Source: Kangiella aquimarina DSM 16071 (GTDB lineage Bacteria > Pseudomonadota > Gammaproteobacteria > Enterobacterales > Kangiellaceae). From it: a stretch of DNA of 64,000 bases. The position numbers were made by a program, and so were the translations under genes. The stretch lies in the NCBI RefSeq assembly GCF_000374105.1, contig NZ_KB893650.1, positions 1,296,862 through 1,360,861 on the forward strand, given 5' to 3'. Each line of letters begins with the position of its first letter. Within the stretch, counting starts at the first letter, position 1. Shown here piece after piece: positions 25,129 through 37,157 of this stretch. Below the pieces are notes generated by a model. That model was not told where the DNA came from, did no database searches, and was given only the letters and a program-made list of their open reading frames with translations.

Positions 25129-25212
25129 TTTTATGCTTCTGGGTATTAGTTTTGGTTGTGCTATACGTACTGGCGCTATAAAAAAATTTATTCAATTTAT
25201 AGGAGTACAGTC

Positions 25213-28200
25213 GTGAAAATCAAAACCATTGCTTCAGTTGTTGTAGCCGCTGTTTATTCAGCTGGCATAGCAGCTACTGCAAGCGCAGTCGGAGGTTCAG
25301 GCTATCAGCTAGAGCCCATTAATATCAGCCCTGAGGCTGCAAAGTCGCGAGTAGAGTCAGGCTACGAAACTTCAGATATCTCTTTGCTTGAAGGTATGGG
25401 TGGAAACGTTAAGTTAAGCCCAAAAGTAAAGTTTAAGGCTGAAGATAATATTTCAGGTCGTCACAATTATATTATTCAATTAAAAAGTGCACCAGCTGCT
25501 CTTTATAAAGGTGACGATAGTGGTTTTGAATCCACCAAGGATCTGTTCTCAAATAAGTCTTTAGGTCCAAGAAAAGTCGATCTTAAATCCAATTCTAAAA
25601 TTGCTGCCTATACCAGTAAACTGAAAAGTGAGCAGGCGGCATTGATTAGTAAAGCCGGTTCGGTTGGCGTTAACCTGAATGTCAAAAAGCAACACCAGAT
25701 TGCTATTAATGCCGTGATTGCTGAAATGACTCAGGACGAGGCAGAGCGCCTGTCGAAGCTAAGCGAAGTTGCTTATATTTCCAGAGATGTGCGTCATGAG
25801 CTATTAATGGATATCGCACCAGAACGTACTGGTGTTCCTAATGCCTGGGTTGATACTACTATCCCGGGTAATCCAGATGGCATAAAAGGTGAGGGTATGC
25901 TTATCGGTGTTATCGATACCGGTATTAATACTCAGCATCCTTCTTTTGCAGCTACAGGTGATGACGGCTATACCGTTCAGAATCCATTAGGCTCTGGCAA
26001 TTTTCTGCATGATTGTAGCGCGGAAGCTTTCCAGTATTTATGTAATGACAAGCTTATTGGTGTCTGGTCGACTCCTATCATTACCGATGTCTTCAGCGAT
26101 CCCGAGTTTACTGAAACACGTCCGGCGGTTGGTGAAGACCACCAGGGGCACGGTTCACACACTGCCAGTATTGCTGCGGGTAATGTTTTATATGATGTGC
26201 CGTATAAAATTCCAGCAATTGCGCAAACTCATGAAGGTATTGATACCGGTTATGTGATTCCGCAAATGTCGGGTATTGCTCCTCATGCGAATATTATTTC
26301 TTATCAGGTTTGTTACCCTGGAAACGGTGGTGATAAGTGGGTTGGCTGTCCTAGCAGTGCAATTATCCCTGCAATTGAGCAGGCTATTCTAGATGGCGTT
26401 GATGTTATCAACTATTCAATTTCTGGCGGTTATGATTCGCATAATGACCCAGTAGAGCTTTCTTTCTTATCTGCTCATGAATCGGGTATTAACGTTGCAG
26501 CTTCTGCCGGTAACGCAGGTGTCTACCGTTCTGTAAACCACGTATCTCCTTGGTTGCTATCAGTAGCTTCAAGCCAGCATGGACGTAAGTTCAATGTCCA
26601 AACAGCGGCTCAGTTACAGGATTTATCTTATAACGGTGCTTCTCTCCCAGCGGCATATCGCACCGATGTTCAGGGTATCAACAAAGCGCCAGTTTCTGGC
26701 CCAATGGTTTTAGCTGCTGATTACGGTGACTCGCTGTGTTCAATACCATTTCCTGCGGGAACTTTTGCCAATGGAGAAATCGTTTTCTGTGAGCGTGGTA
26801 TAAACGCCCTAATTGATAAGTCAGCAAATGTTGCTGCTGGTGGCGGTGCTGCCGTAGTAATTTATAATACTGCTGATTCATCACAGGACATCTATCCAAA
26901 CTTGCCACATAACATTCCAACGGTTCAAATGGATCGTTATGATGGCGATGTCGTTGTTGCCTGGTTGAACGATTTGGATGGTCACTATGGCACCATTCCT
27001 GCAACCGAAGTTACGCGCACGATTGATACTGCACGTCAGGATGCCATTTCACCATTCAGTTCAATTGGTCATGCATATTTAGAAGAATACCGTGAGTCTA
27101 CAGCCCCTGGTATTACTGCTCCAGGTTCTGATATTTACTCAGCTTATTCTTCGGATCAGCCTTTCACACAATATGCCAGCGCAACTGATTTTAACTCTAT
27201 CAGTGGTACATCAATGTCGAGCCCTCATATTGCAGGTGCGTTGGCGTTGATTAAGCAGGCTCGCCCAGATTGGTCGCCGTCTGAAGTGATGTCGGCATTG
27301 CAATTAACAGCTAATGATCTGGTTGGTGATCAGTTCGGTCGTCCTGAGCTTGCCAATCCTTGGTTCTATGGTTCGGGTATTGCTCAAGTTGATAAAGCGA
27401 TCCACTCTGGATTGATCATGCATGTTCCAGTTGAACACTACGCTATCGCTAATCCACATCAAGGCGGTAACATTGGTGCTTTAAATACCCCGAATATGGT
27501 TGATTCAAGCTGCTACCGTAGCTGTAGCTGGGTTCGTGAAGTGACAGCAACTGTTGATGGAACCTGGACAGTGTCAACTGAAACAGATGAGTACAGTGTT
27601 GAGATTGAAGCTTTCCCAAGCACGTTCTCACTAAAGGCTGGCGAAACTCAGCGCATCATCATTAATGGTTCATGGATTGACTCTCGTAGCGTACATGCTT
27701 CGCCTCGTGGGTTATCAGTATTTGGACAAGTACATCTTACTCATGAAAATCCGGCAGTTCCTGTTGCCAGTATGAATGTTGAGATGGAACTGGATAGCGG
27801 TACTTTGCCTGAAGTGGTTGAGTACAACGTTTTCTCAGCTCAAAGCAGTCATACCATTAAAGATCTAGCGTTGGGCGAAGCACCAAACTTGAATGTTGCT
27901 GCTTACGAGCCAGTTTTAGCGAATATTGAAGAAGTTGAACTGGTTGAGCGTAACTCAGGTAGTGGTTCTAATTTGTTTGAAGTTGCTGAGGATCTGGATC
28001 GCGTTAAAGTAACCTGGGTAACAGTTCCAGAAGGTGCTAAGCGTTTCGTTGCTGAAGTTCTGGAAAGCGGAGCTGCTATTAATCCGAATGAGTACACTAA
28101 GCCAATTGGTAATGCTGGTATTTATGTAGGTATTGACGCTAATGAAGATGGTGTTATTGATTATGACAATGAAGCTATCTGTAAATCGGTCATTGACTCA

Positions 28201-30480
28201 ACTGATTTGATGGACTGGTGCAATATTCCAAATCCTGAAGCTGGAAACTACTGGGTAGTGTGGCAGGAGCATAACTATAACACTAGAGCTTACCTAGGCT
28301 ATGAAGATGCAGTTTTCAAGCACAAAGTAGCTACTGCCGTTGTTATGGGTGATCAGGCTACATACCTGAATGTTGAAGCGCCAGCTAGCACCAACATGGA
28401 TAATTTCTATGATGTGACTTTACATCTTGATGACACTGATTTTGCAGAAGGTCAAAAGTATTACACTGCAATTGAATTTGGTACTGACGGAAATAATCCA
28501 GATAACATCGGTCTGATCTCTACTAACCTTGTACGTAAAAAAGACGGCATTAATTTGACAGCCAGCCAGAATGGTGCGGTTGTTGGAGACGTCATTGATT
28601 ACACCGTTTCTGTTAGCGCTAACCTGAGTGGTTCTGATCGTAGCTTTAACCTGACGTCTGACATTCCAGAAGGCCTTGAGTTGGTTGATGGCAGCGTTCA
28701 ACTTGTCGATAACCGATTTGTAAATGCTGATATTTCTCAGGAAGGTAACAGCTTTACAGTAACCGGAATTCAAACAGATAGTCGCGATCGTAAGCGTGAG
28801 TATATTATTACCGACTCTCTAACTGATGCGTCATGTCGTACACCGGTGGGTGATGGCGGTTATGTGAACCTGTATGACTTTGGTTTCTCTCCACTTGAGA
28901 ATGCTCCAGAGAGTAACAGACAGCCTGGATTGCAAGTGACCTTGAATGAGATCTTCCAGGATGAACGTGCTTCATCAGGTGAGGCTTACGCTCTGTTCAA
29001 CTATCAGGAAGGTAATACATTCAACAGTAACAGCCTATACATCTGGGGTAATGGCATGGTGGACTTGCATGGCATGGCACCAGGATTCTTCGGTGCATAT
29101 ACCAATATGGCATTCAATGAGAATTACAAAGCCCCATCTATCGCGAACATGGGTGTGTTCTGGTATGGCCTGGCTGGATTCGGTGCTCAAGGCATGGAAT
29201 TTGGTGCTCCTTACGTTGACACAGGTGTTGAAGCTGAAGCCTCAGGTATAAGCTTCGTGCGTCTGGTGAATCAACAGAACGAAGGCACTCACGTGCTAAT
29301 CGAGTGGGATAATCTTCAGCATGTAACCGGTACTTCCTGTACCTTCAGAGGTTGTGCAGATTGGGAGCCAAACACCAGCTCAACAACTTCTGTCGATGCG
29401 CAGCTTATCCTTGCTCGTGACTACAGTTCAGCTACTGGCGCTTATGAAATGGTTTATGCTTATGACAACCTGAACTTTGGCCATTACATTGGTAACGGTT
29501 CACCATTCCAAAGCAACCTCCGTGTTGAGTATTCTGCAACAGCCGGTGTGCATGGTGGCGCAAGCCCATGGGCAGGTGCACCTATTGATGGATACCTCAA
29601 TCAAAGTGTAGTGCCAGGTTTTGACGGTTATGGTCAACTTGAGAACTACTTACGCGATGATATGGCTATCTGCTTTGACTACAACGGACCTGAAGTAACA
29701 GCCTTTGAAGTTGCGTTTAAGGTTAAAGTTAAGCCTGAAGCAATTGGTCAAAGTTTTGATGTAACTTCTATGCTGACAATGGACGGAGTGGGCACTAAAG
29801 CTTTAACGGCTAGTTTAACTTCGCCTTCAAACATCACGCTATTCAGCATTGATGACCAGTCCATGGTAGAAGAGGGCACCATTGAAGGCATTCAAGTTGC
29901 TTACATGGATAACAACAATGTTTCAAACACCATTAGTGTTCACGGTGAAGGTGTGACTGCGGTTGTTAATGGACACCACAATGGTGCAACCTTTGACCTG
30001 ATTGCTAATGAAAACTTCTCAGGCATGACTGAAGTTACTGTGACGGTTCATGATGATAACCAGCCAACGGATCGCGCAACAACCAAGTTCATGGTTAATG
30101 TTAGCGGCGTCAATGACGCACCAGTGGTCGTGCTGGAGTCTGATGAGATCACTATCACTGAAGGTCAAAGCGCTAGCTTGAATGCTTCAGGTACCTATGA
30201 TCCTGATGGTGATAGTTTAATCTTCAACTGGTCTGGCTCAGGTACTATCGAAAACAGTTCCGCTGCAACAACTTCTGTAAGCGGTCTGGCTGCCGGTTCC
30301 TACACTTTCACACTTGTGGTCAGTGATGGATCTCTACAGGTCGAGAAAACCGTTGATGTTGAAGTATCAGCAGCTCCTTCTACTGGTGGTACTGAAGGCG
30401 GTTCTGGCGGTGGTGGTAGCACCAACTGGTTGTTGTTACTGATGCTTGGCTTCTTCTTGAGAAAGCGCATCAGAGTGTAG
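25213..30480 (+). CDS. Giant secreted subtilisin-like (S8) protease, GlyGly-CTERM
   Basis: A 1755-residue extracellular serine protease. Order: signal peptide (about 1-28), inhibitor I9 propeptide (about 75-195, HNYIIQLKSAPAALY), S8 domain with D235 (GVIDTGINTQHP), H313 (GHGSHTASIAAG) and S667 (GTSMSSPHIAGALAL), with a PA domain inserted before the serine (about 495-590, AAVVIYNTAD), then fibronectin-like and bacterial repeat regions, a cadherin-like stretch, a PKD-like domain (about 1630-1720, NASGTYDPDGDSLIFNWSGSG) and a C-terminal GGSGGGGSTNWLLLLMLGFF plus RKR tail, the GlyGly-CTERM sorting signal cut by rhombosortase. The start is GTG 25213 because AGGAG lies 7 bases before it and gives a clean signal peptide; a frame from ATG 25156 lacks this. 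Divergent from the mipA operon. Confidence 0.9.
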   Translation: MKIKTIASVVVAAVYSAGIAATASAVGGSGYQLEPINISPEAAKSRVESGYETSDISLLEGMGGNVKLSPKVKFKAEDNISGRHNYIIQLKSAPAALYKGDDSGFESTKDLFSNKSLGPRKVDLKSNSKIAAYTSKLKSEQAALISKAGSVGVNLNVKKQHQIAINAVIAEMTQDEAERLSKLSEVAYISRDVRHELLMDIAPERTGVPNAWVDTTIPGNPDGIKGEGMLIGVIDTGINTQHPSFAATGDDGYTVQNPLGSGNFLHDCSAEAFQYLCNDKLIGVWSTPIITDVFSDPEFTETRPAVGEDHQGHGSHTASIAAGNVLYDVPYKIPAIAQTHEGIDTGYVIPQMSGIAPHANIISYQVCYPGNGGDKWVGCPSSAIIPAIEQAILDGVDVINYSISGGYDSHNDPVELSFLSAHESGINVAASAGNAGVYRSVNHVSPWLLSVASSQHGRKFNVQTAAQLQDLSYNGASLPAAYRTDVQGINKAPVSGPMVLAADYGDSLCSIPFPAGTFANGEIVFCERGINALIDKSANVAAGGGAAVVIYNTADSSQDIYPNLPHNIPTVQMDRYDGDVVVAWLNDLDGHYGTIPATEVTRTIDTARQDAISPFSSIGHAYLEEYRESTAPGITAPGSDIYSAYSSDQPFTQYASATDFNSISGTSMSSPHIAGALALIKQARPDWSPSEVMSALQLTANDLVGDQFGRPELANPWFYGSGIAQVDKAIHSGLIMHVPVEHYAIANPHQGGNIGALNTPNMVDSSCYRSCSWVREVTATVDGTWTVSTETDEYSVEIEAFPSTFSLKAGETQRIIINGSWIDSRSVHASPRGLSVFGQVHLTHENPAVPVASMNVEMELDSGTLPEVVEYNVFSAQSSHTIKDLALGEAPNLNVAAYEPVLANIEEVELVERNSGSGSNLFEVAEDLDRVKVTWVTVPEGAKRFVAEVLESGAAINPNEYTKPIGNAGIYVGIDANEDGVIDYDNEAICKSVIDSTDLMDWCNIPNPEAGNYWVVWQEHNYNTRAYLGYEDAVFKHKVATAVVMGDQATYLNVEAPASTNMDNFYDVTLHLDDTDFAEGQKYYTAIEFGTDGNNPDNIGLISTNLVRKKDGINLTASQNGAVVGDVIDYTVSVSANLSGSDRSFNLTSDIPEGLELVDGSVQLVDNRFVNADISQEGNSFTVTGIQTDSRDRKREYIITDSLTDASCRTPVGDGGYVNLYDFGFSPLENAPESNRQPGLQVTLNEIFQDERASSGEAYALFNYQEGNTFNSNSLYIWGNGMVDLHGMAPGFFGAYTNMAFNENYKAPSIANMGVFWYGLAGFGAQGMEFGAPYVDTGVEAEASGISFVRLVNQQNEGTHVLIEWDNLQHVTGTSCTFRGCADWEPNTSSTTSVDAQLILARDYSSATGAYEMVYAYDNLNFGHYIGNGSPFQSNLRVEYSATAGVHGGASPWAGAPIDGYLNQSVVPGFDGYGQLENYLRDDMAICFDYNGPEVTAFEVAFKVKVKPEAIGQSFDVTSMLTMDGVGTKALTASLTSPSNITLFSIDDQSMVEEGTIEGIQVAYMDNNNVSNTISVHGEGVTAVVNGHHNGATFDLIANENFSGMTEVTVTVHDDNQPTDRATTKFMVNVSGVNDAPVVVLESDEITITEGQSASLNASGTYDPDGDSLIFNWSGSGTIENSSAATTSVSGLAAGSYTFTLVVSDGSLQVEKTVDVEVSAAPSTGGTEGGSGGGGSTNWLLLLMLGFFLRKRIRV

Positions 30481-30758: not shown

Positions 30759-31109
30759 TTAATTTGGTGGCTTATTCATTACTTGAGGATCACAGTTGAT
30801 CAGGTTGCCCAGCTTGGTATCTTTAACCAGGATCGAAAGGCTTATCAGTTGCTTTTTGGTATTGATATCAACAAAGCTGATGCTTCTTTTGTCTTCTGAC
30901 ACTTTGACATCTTTAAATTGCTTGCCGGAACCTGAGAAGAATATATCAACAATTTCGTAGTGAGGTAGGGTTGCTTCTGAGAGGGTGAAGATGAGCGGGC
31001 ATTCGCACTCTTCGACCAGCAGTATTTCTGGATCGTAGCTATAGAAATATTTTCCCAGGTTAGAGTTTCCATTTGCTCCAACATAAACCACTGTCAGTTC
31101 TGTTTTCAT
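30759..31109 (-). CDS. Small DP-EP-like protein
   Basis: A 116-residue soluble protein without signal peptide or TM segment, predicted mostly beta strand (LTVVYVGANG, YFYSYDPEILLVEE, ECPLIFTLSEATL, HYEIVDIFF, ISFVDINTK). Its YSYDPE near the start and INCDPQVMNKPP at the end recall the family that databases name DP-EP from such motifs; this is recognition by eye. It follows the large winged-helix/TPR regulator by 13 bases on the same strand, so it is probably co-transcribed and may be a partner of that regulator or of the divergent operon. Function unknown. Confidence 0.6.
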   Translation of the reverse strand: MKTELTVVYVGANGNSNLGKYFYSYDPEILLVEECECPLIFTLSEATLPHYEIVDIFFSGSGKQFKDVKVSEDKRSISFVDINTKKQLISLSILVKDTKLGNLINCDPQVMNKPPN

Positions 31110-31122
31110 AGATTTTCCTTTT

Positions 31123-34100
31123 TTAGTTTGCTATTGGTGTTTCGAATAGGTTGTTGTATTCGGGATGGGTATCAAGAACGCTAAGAGTTCCACCTTCTGT
31201 TGTTGAACATTTGTTTACTGCTTGTTTTTTTAGGTAGTGTTTAATTTGGCAAAAGGGTAGTTGATAGCGTAAAGAACGGTTGTTCTTTGTCAATTGTTCG
31301 AATATCTGTTCGGCCATTTGAAGCTCCGATCGTATTGAGTCCGTTATTGTTTGATCCCTTTTTTGAGCCATTTTAAGCTCTGCTGTTCTAAGGTGGAGCA
31401 GTGCGAATAATTCCTGATGGTAACTATCTCCGCTTTTTTGTATGTTTTGGGTTAAAGCCTTTTGGTAGTAGTCATCAGCACTTTTTATATATCCTTGTGC
31501 CTGGTGATAGCGCCCCAGTTCATAATAGATTTTACTTTGATAGAACTCAGCTTTTTGCGAAGCATGGCCAATCGTTTCAGGTTGTAATGATTGATTAAGT
31601 GTCAGAGCTTTATTGAGCTGAAGTTGAGCGAGATCATATTGGCCTTGAATACGGTAAAGCTGCCCCTGCATTATGAGGGTGAATACTTTTGATTCTTGAT
31701 ATTCCACATTAGTGGGTTCATATGAAATCAGCTCATCAAGAAGGAGCAGTGAGCTATTGAGTTGAGCAAGCGATGGTTGAATATCATTAAGTACAAAATT
31801 TAAATTGGCCAGGTTTTGATAGGCTACTGCAAGGTAATATTGTTGTGCTTTATTGATATCTTGCTGTTGCTTTAATGCCAGGAGGGTTTCAAGTTGCTTC
31901 TGATATTGAGCTCTACTCTTGTGGGTTTCTCCAAGGTAGTCATAAGTTCGTGCAATCCATGAGTAGGTGTCGACCAGCTCCGTTGTGATATCCAAGTTGC
32001 TTTCTTTGAGTAGTCGCTGCTTGAGTTCGGCTGATTGCTCGAAATGGTGTAGCGCATCTTGATACTCGTGTTCGAGTAATTCCAGTGTGCCAAGATTATT
32101 ATGTGCATAGGAAAGCTCATTAAGATAGCGACTGTTTTCGGGTGATAGAACTATAAGCTGGGTTGAATGATTAAAGTAAGCTTCCCAGTAATGACGAGTC
32201 TGCGAATAATCATTATTTAAATAGCTCAGATATCCTTGCCAATAACTAACCTGTCCTAATTCATAAATAATGTCATTGTATAGTGAGCTTGATTCAAGCT
32301 GGCTTTCAACCAAAGTGTTTAACAAGCTCGTTGCTTGCTCGAAAAAGTGGTTAGCTTTGTCATGATGTCCCTGCTGAGTATAAACTTCACCTAATAGTCT
32401 TTGTGCCATGGCATTGTGAAGCTGAGCACTTGAGCTATCAATCCCACTACTATTGAAGTAGTTGATAATCTCAATGCCGAGACTCTCCATTAAGTCCAGC
32501 TTACCAAGAGGGATCAGCTCCCGCTTTAATTCCTGATTCATGAAAGCAATCAACTGTTCGGCGTTATTTCTGGCATTTTGTTGGCTTATTCTTGCGTTAT
32601 TGGCTACCAGCAATGCACTGGTTGAAGTCAGAGAAAGGATACATACTGCCGCTACCATTATGGATTTTATTCTATTTTTTCTTTTCTCGGCTTTTAATGA
32701 TGCGCGAATATAGTCCTTGTGTGGCTGAGCGAGCTCTTTTCCCTTTAATTCCATGAGTTGCCTGGCATCTTCAAGCGGCTTTCCAGGCGACAATAAATAC
32801 CCGCTGCTTTGATTATGTGTTTTCCATAACTCACAATTCGCCGAAATATGCTCTTTAGTGATAAGGCTTTGGTAATGTTTGTTTATCCATTGCTGGGTGA
32901 AGGGGAGTGCATGTATGACCGATTGGCTTATAAAGCGAATATAGGACTCGTTGTTTTTTATATAACAGCTGAGTAAATCGTTACTGATTAGTTCGCCAAC
33001 TAGCCTTAACATTTCATTATTTTGAATAGTGTCTAATTGTATTTCAGTCAATTTGATGTGGAATGCACCGTCAAAATTAACTTTGATAAGTATTGCCAGC
33101 AGTGGATCCAGAGCTTTAGTATTTGTATTGATTTCATTTCTGATATGTGACTGTCGATTCATCCATAGGTCAGTTCTTTCACGCTTAATCTGATTATAGA
33201 TATCAAAGCTCAATTGCTTATCAGGACTTCGTTGGCATAACTCCAGTAGTAAGCCTTGTAGCTGTTTAAGGGTTAATTGATTTTTTACATAAAGTTTGTG
33301 TAACTCCTGGGCGAGGGTTTTACCGGTCTTTGGGCAGGTCTTAAAAGTGTATCCAGAGTTAATTGCGGGTTGAGTGATTGCCAAGTAAACGTCGGTTGAT
33401 GCTGGACGGTTAACGGTATAAAGATGGGCGTTATCAACGATAGATTGGTATGCGGAAAATTTTTTAAGTAACCCTAGATTAAATGGATTTAGGCATATTA
33501 ATAGTTTCACATTGGGATTGGCGTAAAGTTTTAATGCTAAATCTAGTAGTTGTTTAACCCTATTTTTAAAATCGCTGACATCATGTGCATGTTCTTGCTG
33601 TTCCTCTCGTAACATTACAGCAAGCTCAATATGATCGAACAGAATCACGGTTGGCTTACTAACTTTTCCCCCTTTATCATCTTCAATCCTTGTAATTGCT
33701 TCCAGGGCTTTTAACTGTTGGTCATAGTCACTCTGAGAAGATATTGCATCAATGTATTGAAATTCTATCTCTTGCTGCTCAAGTTCAGGCCTAAGGCCTG
33801 CATGAATTAAAGAAGTTTTACCGACCAGGGATTCACCCACCACCAGAACACAATTTTTTGTGAACGATGTCGCTGGCTGTTTCATGATGTAGAGCAGTTC
33901 CTGGACGGCGTAGTCTCGACCATAAAATAGCCTGCTTTCAGAATAGGCAAAGCTGCGGGTTCCCGGGTAGGGAATAATATCAATGTCAGTTATTTGGTTG
34001 TTGTCTGGCTCACTACTTATTTGTGCTATGAGTCGGTATCCCCGCTTGGGAATTGTTTGAATATAAGTTGGATTTCTGGAGCTATCCTTAAAAGCTTTTC

Positions 34101-34338
34101 TTAGCTGAGTGATACATTTGTGCAAGGGGTTATCGCTGAGGAATTGATTAGGCCAGCAGCGATCTAACAGTACCTCAGAGCTGACAACTTGACCTGCATG
34201 CTCGATTAGGCACGCCAGGACATTCATGACTTTTGGTTCAAATATGACTTGTTGAGTTGCATCGTCTAAGCGTTGCATTTGATGACTTTCAACATCCACA
34301 AGCCACTCACCAATTTGAATTGGGCTATTTTCCATCAT
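31123..34338 (-). CDS. Membrane-bound winged-helix / P-loop NTPase / TPR regulator
   Basis: A 1071-residue multidomain regulator. Residues about 8-108 form an OmpR/CadC-type winged helix (EPKVMNVLACLIEHAGQVVSSEVLLDRCW, then QTIPKRGYRLIA). About 130-420 is a P-loop domain of STAND type with Walker A GESLVGKTS (K174) and a Walker-B-like VILFDHIEL. One TM helix (about 559-580, IMVAAVCILSLTSTSALLVA) follows a basic stretch. The remaining 490 residues, presumably periplasmic, are TPR repeats (for example LGEVYTQQGHHDKANHFFEQA and LAQLQLNKALTLN). CadC-like topology suggests DNA binding in the cytoplasm controlled by the outer TPR sensor and ATP. It faces the DUF2589 operon across 219 bases with three regularly spaced half-sites. 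Confidence 0.85.
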   Translation of the reverse strand: MMENSPIQIGEWLVDVESHQMQRLDDATQQVIFEPKVMNVLACLIEHAGQVVSSEVLLDRCWPNQFLSDNPLHKCITQLRKAFKDSSRNPTYIQTIPKRGYRLIAQISSEPDNNQITDIDIIPYPGTRSFAYSESRLFYGRDYAVQELLYIMKQPATSFTKNCVLVVGESLVGKTSLIHAGLRPELEQQEIEFQYIDAISSQSDYDQQLKALEAITRIEDDKGGKVSKPTVILFDHIELAVMLREEQQEHAHDVSDFKNRVKQLLDLALKLYANPNVKLLICLNPFNLGLLKKFSAYQSIVDNAHLYTVNRPASTDVYLAITQPAINSGYTFKTCPKTGKTLAQELHKLYVKNQLTLKQLQGLLLELCQRSPDKQLSFDIYNQIKRERTDLWMNRQSHIRNEINTNTKALDPLLAILIKVNFDGAFHIKLTEIQLDTIQNNEMLRLVGELISNDLLSCYIKNNESYIRFISQSVIHALPFTQQWINKHYQSLITKEHISANCELWKTHNQSSGYLLSPGKPLEDARQLMELKGKELAQPHKDYIRASLKAEKRKNRIKSIMVAAVCILSLTSTSALLVANNARISQQNARNNAEQLIAFMNQELKRELIPLGKLDLMESLGIEIINYFNSSGIDSSSAQLHNAMAQRLLGEVYTQQGHHDKANHFFEQATSLLNTLVESQLESSSLYNDIIYELGQVSYWQGYLSYLNNDYSQTRHYWEAYFNHSTQLIVLSPENSRYLNELSYAHNNLGTLELLEHEYQDALHHFEQSAELKQRLLKESNLDITTELVDTYSWIARTYDYLGETHKSRAQYQKQLETLLALKQQQDINKAQQYYLAVAYQNLANLNFVLNDIQPSLAQLNSSLLLLDELISYEPTNVEYQESKVFTLIMQGQLYRIQGQYDLAQLQLNKALTLNQSLQPETIGHASQKAEFYQSKIYYELGRYHQAQGYIKSADDYYQKALTQNIQKSGDSYHQELFALLHLRTAELKMAQKRDQTITDSIRSELQMAEQIFEQLTKNNRSLRYQLPFCQIKHYLKKQAVNKCSTTEGGTLSVLDTHPEYNNLFETPIAN

Positions 34339-34427
34339 TTTCTCTTCAGCTATTTGTTTTTATTTCTATTGTTAAAATTATTTTTGTTCTTTAACTGATT
34401 GAAATATATGTGTTTTATAATATCCAG

Positions 34428-34454
34428 TTTTCCGCAAGCTTTCTCCAGCTTTCC
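34428..34454. promoter_or_regulatory. Three direct half-sites (Y-TTTC-Y) at 10-11 bp spacing
   Basis: TTTTCC (34428), CTTTCT (34439) and CTTTCC (34449) repeat in the same orientation, one per helical turn; the outer two share the longer CCAG-Y-TTTCC, 21 bp apart. Tandem direct half-sites at about 11 bp are the binding geometry of OmpR/PhoB-type winged helices, the domain carried by the divergent regulator. They lie 104 bases before the DUF2589 gene and 90 bases before the regulator start. Confidence 0.5.
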
Positions 34455-34557
34455 AGAAGGACTTTCATCTCAATCCGTCGCATAACTTAATCATCCTAAC
34501 CGCATGAACGCTGTTTGTCAGCAGATGCAAATATGACTTATTTAAGGGAGTAAAACG

Positions 34558-35172
34558 ATGATTAATTTAGAAGAGTTAGTTTCCGCCATACAGCAAAGTG
34601 CACTATCAGCTTCATCGGTAGTGGCGAAAAAAAATCTTGAGATTCTTGATGAGTTTTTTGAACGTTATGAAGAAGACTCTGATGTCGATGATTTAGCGAA
34701 GTCAGCTTTGTCGGCGATTGCCGAACTGGACAGTAAAGATGCCGAGCAGGCTGAGAAAATTAAAGATGTACTTAATAGTCTTTCTGCTGCATTGAAAAAA
34801 GCGGGGCATGATAAAGCGGGCTCATTAGCGCCTAAGTTGGTCAATATTGAATATCCTAACGTGACAAAACATGGAGTAGAGACCCATACCGTTAGTGTGC
34901 CTCTGCTAAGCCTTATTCCAATTAACTCCATCCAATTGTCTGAGCTGAAGTTTACTACCGATCTGGATATCAGTCTGGTGGAAGACAAACTTCAGATCGC
35001 ATTCCCAGATAAGCCCAAAGCCGGTCGTCTTGGTAAATCCAAAGATGATGGCCAGGGCAAATCGCATCACGCCACACTAGAAGTGGTGATTGATTGCAAA
35101 GAACCGCCACAAGGATTGCAGAAACTTGTGGAAGGTTATGACCGAGCACTAAGAGCACAAATCCCAGGATAG
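34558..35172 (+). CDS. DUF2589-like protein A
   Basis: A 204-residue cytoplasmic-looking protein. The N-terminal half is acidic alpha-helix (about 1-85, LVSAIQQSALSASSVVAKKN and long heptad-like acidic stretches). The C-terminal half contains VSVPLLSLIPINSIQLSELKF, the hallmark phrase shared with DUF2589 proteins and with the next gene (LPLLTILPLNSLAVDDVSI), followed by a beta-strand region ending LEVVIDCKEPPQGLQKLVE. First gene of a five-gene operon, preceded by GGGAGTAAA. Function unknown; the paired arrangement suggests the two paralogues form a heteromeric complex. Confidence 0.75.
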   Translation: MINLEELVSAIQQSALSASSVVAKKNLEILDEFFERYEEDSDVDDLAKSALSAIAELDSKDAEQAEKIKDVLNSLSAALKKAGHDKAGSLAPKLVNIEYPNVTKHGVETHTVSVPLLSLIPINSIQLSELKFTTDLDISLVEDKLQIAFPDKPKAGRLGKSKDDGQGKSHHATLEVVIDCKEPPQGLQKLVEGYDRALRAQIPG

Positions 35173-35236
35173 AAGAAGTGGGTTTGGGCTCTTCTGCACT
35201 TTAACTTAACAAACTTTAAATATAAGGAGATTTACT

Positions 35237-35908
35237 ATGTCTGATGCACAACCACCATTAGTCAGTATGGCTGAGCAGTTCACAGGGTTGCCAATGGGTG
35301 ACTTGATTGGTGCCCCTTTATTAGCGGCAGCAAAAGCGAACTCAGCAATGGCGGCAACACAGACCAAGTTTTTACTTGATACCTGTTTTGCTAAGGAAAC
35401 TACCGATGATGGAAAAGATCATTATCAGCCCGTGCTGATCAAGATGACCCTGTCACGCGGTGTTCTGGTCCCAGTTGACCCATCGCAACCCGATCAGGAA
35501 CCGACTATTAGCGAAGTTAAAACAACGTTTGACTTACCACTGTTAACTATCCTGCCTTTGAACTCATTAGCAGTTGATGATGTTTCTATTGGTTTTGATA
35601 TGGAAGTTAAATCGAGCTTCAGTGAAACCACCAATGAGAAAACTGAAGAAGCGCTTAGCGCTCAGTCAAGCTTCTCAGCAAAGGTTGGATACGGAGTATT
35701 CTCCGCTGAAGTTTCGGGTAGCGTAAGTTATGACAGTGCTAGTTCGTCTTCTCGTGATACTCATTATGAGAAGAGCAACTCCGCTCAATACAGCGTGAAG
35801 GTTCATGCCGGTCAAATCCCATTGCCACAGGGTGTTACAACCATTATCCAGGCATTCACTAACAGTATTTCACCGATTGAAATGCCTGTTTATGGTGAAG
35901 CTGGCTAA
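35237..35908 (+). CDS. DUF2589 family protein B
   Basis: A 223-residue paralogue of the preceding protein. The N-terminal amphipathic part (MAEQFTGLPMGDLIGAPLLAAAKANSAMA, about 10-38) has small-residue-rich helices. The core FDLPLLTILPLNSLAVDDVSIGFDME (about 95-120) matches the DUF2589 signature. A serine-rich stretch follows (about 125-185, VSYDSASSSSRDTHYE) and then a beta strand YSVKVHAGQIPLPQGVTTII. No signal peptide. AAGGAG lies 8 bases before the ATG. Serine-rich segments and LP.QG turns suggest an oligomer-forming surface, which is inference. A stable hairpin separates it from the next gene. Confidence 0.78.
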   Translation: MSDAQPPLVSMAEQFTGLPMGDLIGAPLLAAAKANSAMAATQTKFLLDTCFAKETTDDGKDHYQPVLIKMTLSRGVLVPVDPSQPDQEPTISEVKTTFDLPLLTILPLNSLAVDDVSIGFDMEVKSSFSETTNEKTEEALSAQSSFSAKVGYGVFSAEVSGSVSYDSASSSSRDTHYEKSNSAQYSVKVHAGQIPLPQGVTTIIQAFTNSISPIEMPVYGEAG

Positions 35909-35922
35909 GTGGTGTTCAAGTC

Positions 35923-35946
35923 AAGGCTATGCTCCGGCATAGCCTT
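35923..35946 (+). other. Hairpin inside the DUF2589 operon
   Basis: AAGGCTATG pairs with CATAGCCTT around a 6-base loop between the second and third genes. Only ATTTAT follows, so termination would be partial; it may lower expression of the three downstream genes or protect the 3' end of the DUF2589 message. Confidence 0.5.
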
Positions 35947-35978
35947 ATTTATAAAGCTAATCAAGCAAGGAGTTATTT

Positions 35979-36167
35979 ATGTTTACGCAGATTAATTGCC
36001 CAAATTGTCAACAACCCATTGCAATTAACGTCAAGAGATTAGTCGCTGGAGACTCATTCAGTTGTAAGGGGTGCTCTGCCAAAATTTCTCTGGCTGGCGA
36101 GTCTTCTAATGTCGTCACCAAAGCCGTTAACTCATTTGAAAAAGTTGCTGCACAAGCCAAGCATTAA
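35979..36167 (+). CDS. Zinc-ribbon mini-protein
   Basis: A 62-residue protein with two CxxC pairs (CPNC at about 7-10 and CKGC at about 29-32) spaced as in a zinc ribbon, with a basic strand between (AINVKRLVAGDSFS). The C-terminal 20 residues are a helix (NSFEKVAAQAKH). AAGGAG lies 7 bases before the ATG. It sits third in the DUF2589 operon and may bridge a complex or bind nucleic acid; no specific function is visible. Confidence 0.7.
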   Translation: MFTQINCPNCQQPIAINVKRLVAGDSFSCKGCSAKISLAGESSNVVTKAVNSFEKVAAQAKH

Positions 36168-36209
36168 ATTGCGTTGTCAGTCATAAACCATCAGTGAAGG
36201 AGTAAAGCT

Positions 36210-36716
36210 ATGGATATAGAAATAGGACAATTATCGATAGGAGAAATCGGTTATAAAGCAGCGAATTTTGATGTCTGGAATGCTGCAATTTATCAGCAGA
36301 GTGCTGGCAATGACGCAGACTGGTCAGGTCTATATATTGCTGAAGCAGAATCAACGGCACAGGGCTACTTACCGGACTATGCAGGTCAAGATGGCAGTGG
36401 TGTTGGTTATATTCATCGTGTGTCCGTTACTAGTGACTTACCTTTGATAACCTGCCTGGATGAGTCTTTCAAGCAGGGTGATATTGATGTTCCTGCTCTT
36501 AAACAGGCGTTGCGAAATGCTGGGGTAGCGGTTGCCGATGATCAATTGTTAATCCCCAGGCTGGGGCAGCTGGGTTATTGCTTTCGTTGCTATAACAACG
36601 AGGAGGGTGATATTGAAGTCATTGTTCCAAACAGTCTGGCTCAGCATATCGCTATGAACTCCATTAAGCGCTGTACCATTCAGGCTTATATAGTACAGAA
36701 CTGTCAGGCCATTTAG
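36210..36716 (+). CDS. Unknown protein, possible ADP-ribosyltransferase-like fold
   Basis: A 168-residue cytoplasmic-type protein. The segment GLYIAEAESTAQGYLPDY (about 47-64), followed by GVGYIHRVSVTS, is spaced like the core strands of ADP-ribosyltransferase toxins (glycine-leucine-tyrosine strand, alanine-rich helix with tyrosine, then a strand). Near the C-terminus, EGDIEVIVPNSLAQHI (about 130-145) resembles the ART motif with E-V-x-x-P after the catalytic glutamate. The expected first histidine or arginine motif is not clear (GEIGYKAA is the candidate), so this is a fold hypothesis only. It lies 42 bases after the zinc-ribbon gene and 19 before the last gene, with an AAGGAG ribosome site. 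Confidence 0.55.
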   Translation: MDIEIGQLSIGEIGYKAANFDVWNAAIYQQSAGNDADWSGLYIAEAESTAQGYLPDYAGQDGSGVGYIHRVSVTSDLPLITCLDESFKQGDIDVPALKQALRNAGVAVADDQLLIPRLGQLGYCFRCYNNEEGDIEVIVPNSLAQHIAMNSIKRCTIQAYIVQNCQAI

Positions 36717-36735
36717 ATAGGTCAAGGAGATAATT

Positions 36736-37086
36736 ATGCCATGGGATCAAAACAAGTGTCAGTGGGGATATCCTCCACATTTCACCAATCAGGATGCTGC
36801 ACAAGCGGTGGCATTGGCAGATTTCAATAACTCTGTATTTGTGAATACCTCACAGGCAGGTCAAACCCGCCAGGCCTATACCTATGTAGTGATGCAGGGG
36901 TACAGAATCTGTGTCGTAGGCCATATCCATCCACAAGCTAATCAGCCGCCACTTCCGGGTAATGCATTTATTCCCGGCTGGCTGGAGTGGGCGATGCCAA
37001 CCCCTACACCCAGTGTTGCCGTGATTGAAGGTTTGCCTGATGGAGGGAACTTCCCAGGTGATAACCGATATCCTCATCCTGTATGA
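36736..37086 (+). CDS. Uncharacterised protein ending the DUF2589 operon
   Basis: A 116-residue soluble protein rich in proline, glutamine and aromatic residues (MPWDQNKCQWGYPPHFTNQD, YRICVVGHIHPQANQPP, PGWLEWAMPTPTPS). Neither signal peptide nor membrane segment is seen. Its central part, QAYTYVVMQGYRICVVGHI, looks like two adjacent beta strands. I do not recognise a family. CAAGGAG lies 8 bases before the ATG, and a terminator follows, so it is the final member of the operon. By position after the possible ART-like protein, it could be a partner or inhibitor; this is inference. Confidence 0.6.
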   Translation: MPWDQNKCQWGYPPHFTNQDAAQAVALADFNNSVFVNTSQAGQTRQAYTYVVMQGYRICVVGHIHPQANQPPLPGNAFIPGWLEWAMPTPTPSVAVIEGLPDGGNFPGDNRYPHPV

Positions 37087-37112
37087 CAAAGAGCAAACTA
37101 TCGTAGCGATAG

Positions 37113-37157
37113 GGTAGCTGTGGTTGGACTTTAATAGTCCGGCTGCAGCTATTTTTT
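37113..37157 (+). terminator. Terminator of the DUF2589 operon
   Basis: A long stem with an internal mismatch: GTAGCTG with CAGCTA outside and GGACT with AGTCC inside, loop TTAAT, followed by TTTTTT. Confidence 0.8.

Follow-up and report, generated by a model that had tools for sequence, protein, structure and literature searches.

We analyzed a 64,000-nucleotide window of the 2.68-Mb genome of Kangiella aquimarina DSM 16071 (contig NZ_KB893650.1, positions 1,296,862 to 1,360,861; class Gammaproteobacteria, order Enterobacterales in GTDB) that contains a seven-gene block built around two paralogs of the family DUF2589 (PF11655). Two genes, R and D, run leftward and five, A-B-Z-T-O, run rightward, with R and A back to back. 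We found no description of this block in the open-licence literature. Its features, in window coordinates, are as follows.

30759..31109, minus strand: D, 116-residue DP-EP-like protein encoded second in the R-D pair
31123..34338, minus strand: R, 1071-residue membrane regulator
34339..34557: divergent region between R and A, 219 bp, with a putative regulatory role
34558..35172, plus strand: A, 204-residue DUF2589 paralog (E = 3.8e-17)
35237..35908, plus strand: B, 223-residue DUF2589 paralog (E = 5.3e-30)
35923..35946, plus strand: hairpin in the mRNA between B and Z, 10 pairs and a 4-base loop (z = -2.5 for the stretch)
35979..36167, plus strand: Z, third gene of the rightward operon
36210..36716, plus strand: T, 168-residue ADP-ribosyltransferase (ART)-like protein, probable effector
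36736..37086, plus strand: O, 116-residue orphan directly after T
37111..37157, plus strand: strong hairpin, terminator of the operon

This anatomy confirms the arrangement that an earlier note on the same DNA had described: a regulator with a winged helix, an NTPase, a transmembrane (TM) helix, and TPRs, together with a DP-EP-like gene, faces a DUF2589 operon that ends in a terminator, the TM helix being marginal. All seven genes occur in the same order in K. shandongensis, and the two genes flanking the block there have abutting counterparts in three other Kangiella, representing an empty site, as matched by eye. The block is thus apparently inserted, a small island. Another Kangiella genome (G003) has R, D, T, O, and an incomplete A, spread over two contigs. 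Immediately left of the block, the window has a gene for a 1774-residue protein labeled by eye as subtilase-like (25156-30480), and K. shandongensis has other genes at this place. Foreign base composition was considered and set aside as not telling, with 41.6% guanine plus cytosine in the cassette against 43.0 ± 2.2% in equal windows.

A and B are related to each other in sequence, and both pass the curated cutoff for DUF2589 (63.5 and 105.2 bits, respectively, against 23). A scan of a genome collection for relatives of B, which detects only loci with one of two conserved peptides, gave 201 relatives, and 80 loci were kept; open reading frames (ORFs) in these loci were called and then labeled with local profiles. 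A lies within 2.5 kb of B in 76 of the 80 kept loci, 7 of which are cut near B by contig ends. The loci differ in the small protein that accompanies the pair. Of the 27 loci nearest to the window (L029-L055), a set that spans several phyla and includes K. shandongensis itself and some near-copies, 25 have A within 2.5 kb, 23 have Z, and none has a second small protein, V, at this distance. Of the other 53 (L056-L108), 51 have A, 50 have V, and none has Z. Each subfamily of B thus comes with a small partner of its own. Z has four cysteines and matches two zinc-containing PHROG families of unknown function (E = 2e-4). V has about 90 residues (e.g., L060:8915-9199) with the conserved pattern ...RxVVG...LNxCL...PKG...GEHQVVLQ...YHxGFxRKP and bears no likeness to Z.

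DUF2589 is rare in the class (3 of 369 genomes, with two copies each). On a tree built from 35 B proteins, the Kangiella pair falls together with two Myxococcota (98/95 support), and the phylum labels require 13 changes against a minimum of 8. Kangiella B is nearer to its myxobacterial relatives (69-70% identity) than to those of Vibrio, Photobacterium, and Rheinheimera (52-56%), suggesting that DUF2589 genes have likely spread horizontally; paralogy may also lie behind the tree pattern. A PDB search with the B profile gave no match, and we found neither a function for DUF2589 nor a mention of PF11655 in the open-licence literature. In Archaeoglobus fulgidus, the DUF2589 genes AF0414-AF0417 are up-regulated on lactate, according to one report (PMC3949148).

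The neighbors of DUF2589 elsewhere include candidates for a cargo. We put 72 of 121 flanking same-strand ORFs to Pfam; among the 25 families shown of 89 in all were Glyco_hydro_19 (6 matches), GerE (5), AraC (4), Sigma70_r4_2 (4), PG_binding_1, PG_binding_3, and Response_reg (3 each), and Glyco_hydro_108 and Trans_reg_C (2 each), tallies that are not per locus, include kin that are not independent, and count some proteins under two families (GerE with Sigma70_r4_2, Glyco_hydro_108 with PG_binding_3). As a control, 72 ORFs lying more than 5 kb away in the same loci gave 92 families, with 25 shown and those found once only partly listed. Solute-binding, AraC, oxidoreductase, and response-regulator families were each found twice, and no hydrolase family and no GerE was among the control families found two or more times. 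Hydrolases and LuxR-type genes therefore look enriched beside DUF2589, AraC and response regulators hardly so, in a comparison weakened by the different position and strand of the control ORFs. Individual neighbors include an Amidase_2 protein beside a Lachnospiraceae copy, an Rv2525c glycoside hydrolase-like protein in Polyangium, an endolysin in a viral contig, and, after Z in Rheinheimera, a weak nuclease-like match to Exo_endo_phos (E = 4.6e-5, just under its cutoff).

It is conceivable, if doubtful, that the DUF2589 pair and its partner, Z or V, make up an unrecognized carrier device found across phyla, in which A and B would build a particle or polymer, the small partner would close or load it, and a neighboring gene would supply a swappable cargo (peptidoglycan hydrolase, nuclease, or ADP-ribosyltransferase), placed in Kangiella under a STAND membrane sensor. 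Besides the mismatch of the control, other points about the neighbors tell against the sensor-gated cassette that we favor below. The hydrolase matches may come largely from related betaproteobacteria. Regulators lend weak support, since AraC and response-regulator families appeared twice each in the control and Sigma70_r4_2 falls partly on the same LuxR-type proteins. Of 10 further genes in the cargo or flanking position, 8 had no usable function, and several cargo-position genes had no match.

The leftward gene R encodes, in order, an N-terminal OmpR-type winged helix (residues 29-103), an nSTAND1 NTPase (123-512), one TM segment (557-575), and a TPR region (about 600-1000). The nearest PDB chain to the winged helix is the DNA-binding part of CadC (E = 4.9e-17), the NTPase matches its profile at E = 9.8e-26 with the Walker A motif GESLVGKTS, and the TM segment is marginal, with a hydropathy of 1.62 against a threshold of 1.6. 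Membrane one-component regulators of the CadC/ToxR type share with R the N-terminal OmpR-like winged helix and a large C-terminal region, which in R lies past a single putative TM segment. R differs from them in having an nSTAND1 NTPase between winged helix and membrane, TPRs beyond it, and a DP-EP-like gene following. By analogy with this type, R would sit in the inner membrane with the winged helix and STAND ATPase inside and the TPR region outside. Between the window and G003, no gene of the block changes faster than R, with 59% protein identity against 83-93% for its neighbors; within R, the winged helix (79%) and the TM region (80%) have changed least, and the start of the NTPase (45%) and the C terminus (39%) most.

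The best-kept part of the divergent region lies around 34430-34467 and includes two copies of GCTTTC, at 34438 and 34448, 10 bp apart. We rejected this pair as a binding site for R, as neither of the other two species keeps both copies and the second is kept in neither. Between the window and K. shandongensis, the longest exact match in the region is 14 bases, at the ribosome site, and shuffled sequences reach 14 at most. In one other locus, L099, A likewise has a divergent winged-helix gene upstream.

T and O belong to no Pfam or NCBIfam family, and their subthreshold matches were noise. A three-row profile of T matched PDB entry 9qe9, named 'ADP-ribosylating toxin', over residues 31-150 (E = 1.2e-4); the match to the exotoxin 6edg reached only E = 0.89. 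Six T homologs keep W-x-G-x-Y-x-A followed by G-Y, and the Kangiella copies have a later Glu. T thus resembles ADP-ribosylating toxins in the aligned region and in its kept Tyr pair, and differs from them as a lone 168-residue domain with no Pfam match and a changed first motif. By its sequence, T looks like an enzyme that could modify other proteins chemically, and it is a probable effector. Seven Serratia plasmids and one Vibrio plasmid carry relatives with 23-32% identity; where the surrounding sequence was read, these adjoin a Tox-PLDMTX protein and proteins matching ADPrib_exo_Tox, or lie near a gene annotated as OspC family. The Serratia plasmids with a T homolog near Tox-PLDMTX and ADPrib_exo_Tox proteins include conjugative ones (L136:3098-10099 and L138:4016-8081). 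O, which was matched only in three Kangiella among 149 relatives and in no plasmid or viral contig, follows T in all three, a gene order that suggests a guard or partner of T.

We tentatively favor the reading that the small island carries a sensor-gated effector cassette, while holding it somewhat less than probable. It builds on gene content, order, conservation, modularity, the ART-like sequence of T, and the site that is empty in three relatives. R would be switched by a signal that D tunes or relays, and would act on the 219-bp divergent region to turn on A-B-Z-T-O. A and B, with Z as a dedicated small partner, might then form an intracellular assembly, the carrier or platform of an exchangeable cargo gene. 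In this block the cargo would be T, which may be loaded onto the assembly and directed at a target, with O as its partner or guard. The earlier note had seen a likeness to a signal-controlled effector or stress system; an effector system is still the best reading, and the stress part gained no direct support.

Several findings weigh against this cassette reading. T and its homologs have no Pfam match, T was found in no other of the 369 class genomes, and the first ART motif has K in place of the classical His in all six T homologs, making the activity of T unsure. The possible ART-fold protein of the earlier note thus has a sequence match to a known ART, 9qe9, and an uncertain motif set. R-like genes were labeled in only 2 of the 79 other kept DUF2589 loci (L035 and L099).

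The distribution of R and D bears on their tie to the operon. D scored 15.1 bits against the DP-EP family (PF08985), below the curated cutoff of 25, and is named DP-EP-like only; the Pfam model had no match in 229 genomes and was silent in controls too, making it uninformative. A three-row profile of D (E of 0.01 or better) found matches in 25 of 345 genomes of the order, with an R-profile ORF adjoining D in 22; the three without adjacent R (G553, G722, and G601) are weak and stop-broken and probably false. The C-terminal DPQVxNKPP of D is retained in a homolog of 28% identity. Many R-D loci of the order have beside them a gene ending like what we take to be a GGDEF diguanylate cyclase (L149, L150, L151, L154-L161, L164, L166, and L170), and some have a second D copy with an apparent signal peptide, judged by eye (L153:1489-2253, L161:1321-1791, and L168:1790-2296), a hint that the cytoplasm is not the only place where D-like proteins can act. 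Besides the genome of the window, 21 genomes have R-D; 19 lack DUF2589, and the two that have it are K. shandongensis and G049, where the R-D and DUF2589 loci lie about 315 kb apart. Thus, R-D is a sensor-regulator unit of its own, and R is no more than a putative controller of the A-O operon. A lack of co-occurrence elsewhere, named by the earlier note as refuting its reading, is not what we see: Z accompanies the pair in several phyla, and a second species has all seven genes. R-D, however, is a separate module, and we saw the complete set in no genus but Kangiella. The pairing of A with B, by contrast, is the rule in the kept DUF2589 loci.

This distribution, together with the far greater divergence of R than of its neighbors, would be expected if R-D regulated something else and A-O were an unrelated operon sharing the island by chance. 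We consider this unlikely, as two species, and a third as far as the contigs show, keep the block whole with its divergent arrangement despite different left flanks, and as a divergent regulator and operon are often under common control.

A link to R-bodies gives another alternative to the cassette. Of the 33 genomes with DUF2589 loci that were searched, 7 have RebB, compared with 1 of 185 genomes of the class, although this control covers one class and the 33 genomes span many phyla, and reb genes adjoin DUF2589 in three loci, two from Vibrio and one from Chromobacterium (L049:4399-6955, L056:9613-9903, and L075:9371-11025). L075 also has a gene with what, by eye, is presumably a DUF4157-like HExxH stretch. 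Like the locus here, reb clusters combine small proteins with their own regulators. In Pseudomonas aeruginosa PA14, one report has RapA, a reb-cluster protein, co-localizing with RebP1, and RcgA and FecI2 controlling expression (PMC8322103). The main text of a 2026 Reb survey, as far as available, has no words beginning with DUF (PMC13430693). It is nevertheless very unlikely that DUF2589 proteins have an accessory or structural part in extendable ribbons or in the accompanying cell lysis: the genome of the window has no RebB, B has no RebB profile similarity, and seven other reb stretches have no A, B, V, or Z. We rejected membership of the locus in the R-body systems on these grounds.

The block could instead be a self-directed abortive or lytic switch, in which the sensor triggers T, or a peptidoglycan hydrolase at other loci, and the producer is killed or lysed, e.g., on phage attack. 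Bacterial conflict systems often contain STAND NTPases and ARTs, and peptidoglycan hydrolases recur beside DUF2589. However, R has the build of a transcription factor, which would be slow for abortive infection, and the best match in PADLOC-DB 2.0.0 (E = 0.015) is not meaningful, so known anti-phage defense was rejected and the phage link raised by the earlier note found no support. Moreover, A-B is itself carried by seven contigs, of three kinds, found by scanning a viral collection for B relatives. We therefore regard such a switch as quite unlikely. Phage origin was rejected as well: D, A, B, T, and O have no convincing PHROG, B and T were absent from the annotated phage collection, and T was absent from the viral contigs. 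Families of contractile injection sheaths, tubes, and baseplates were absent from the seven block proteins (Pfam) and from the six put to PHROGs. In four related viral contigs (L112, L113, L114, and L115), A-B follows a large gene with no Z or V; the best PHROG matches of this gene in L114 are of unknown function, with a weaker DarB-like one.

For the cassette as we read it, the anatomy is sound: two conserved modules and a cargo gene are joined on a small island. R-D is now defined as a two-gene sensor unit within the order that holds Kangiella. DUF2589, a family of unknown function that ranges over bacteria of many phyla, viral-collection contigs, and, by one report, an archaeon (PMC3949148), gains a defined unit in A-B together with Z or V, and a short list of cargo-like neighbors. 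The Kangiella operon adds a candidate sensor and a candidate enzyme, making the role of the family directly testable.
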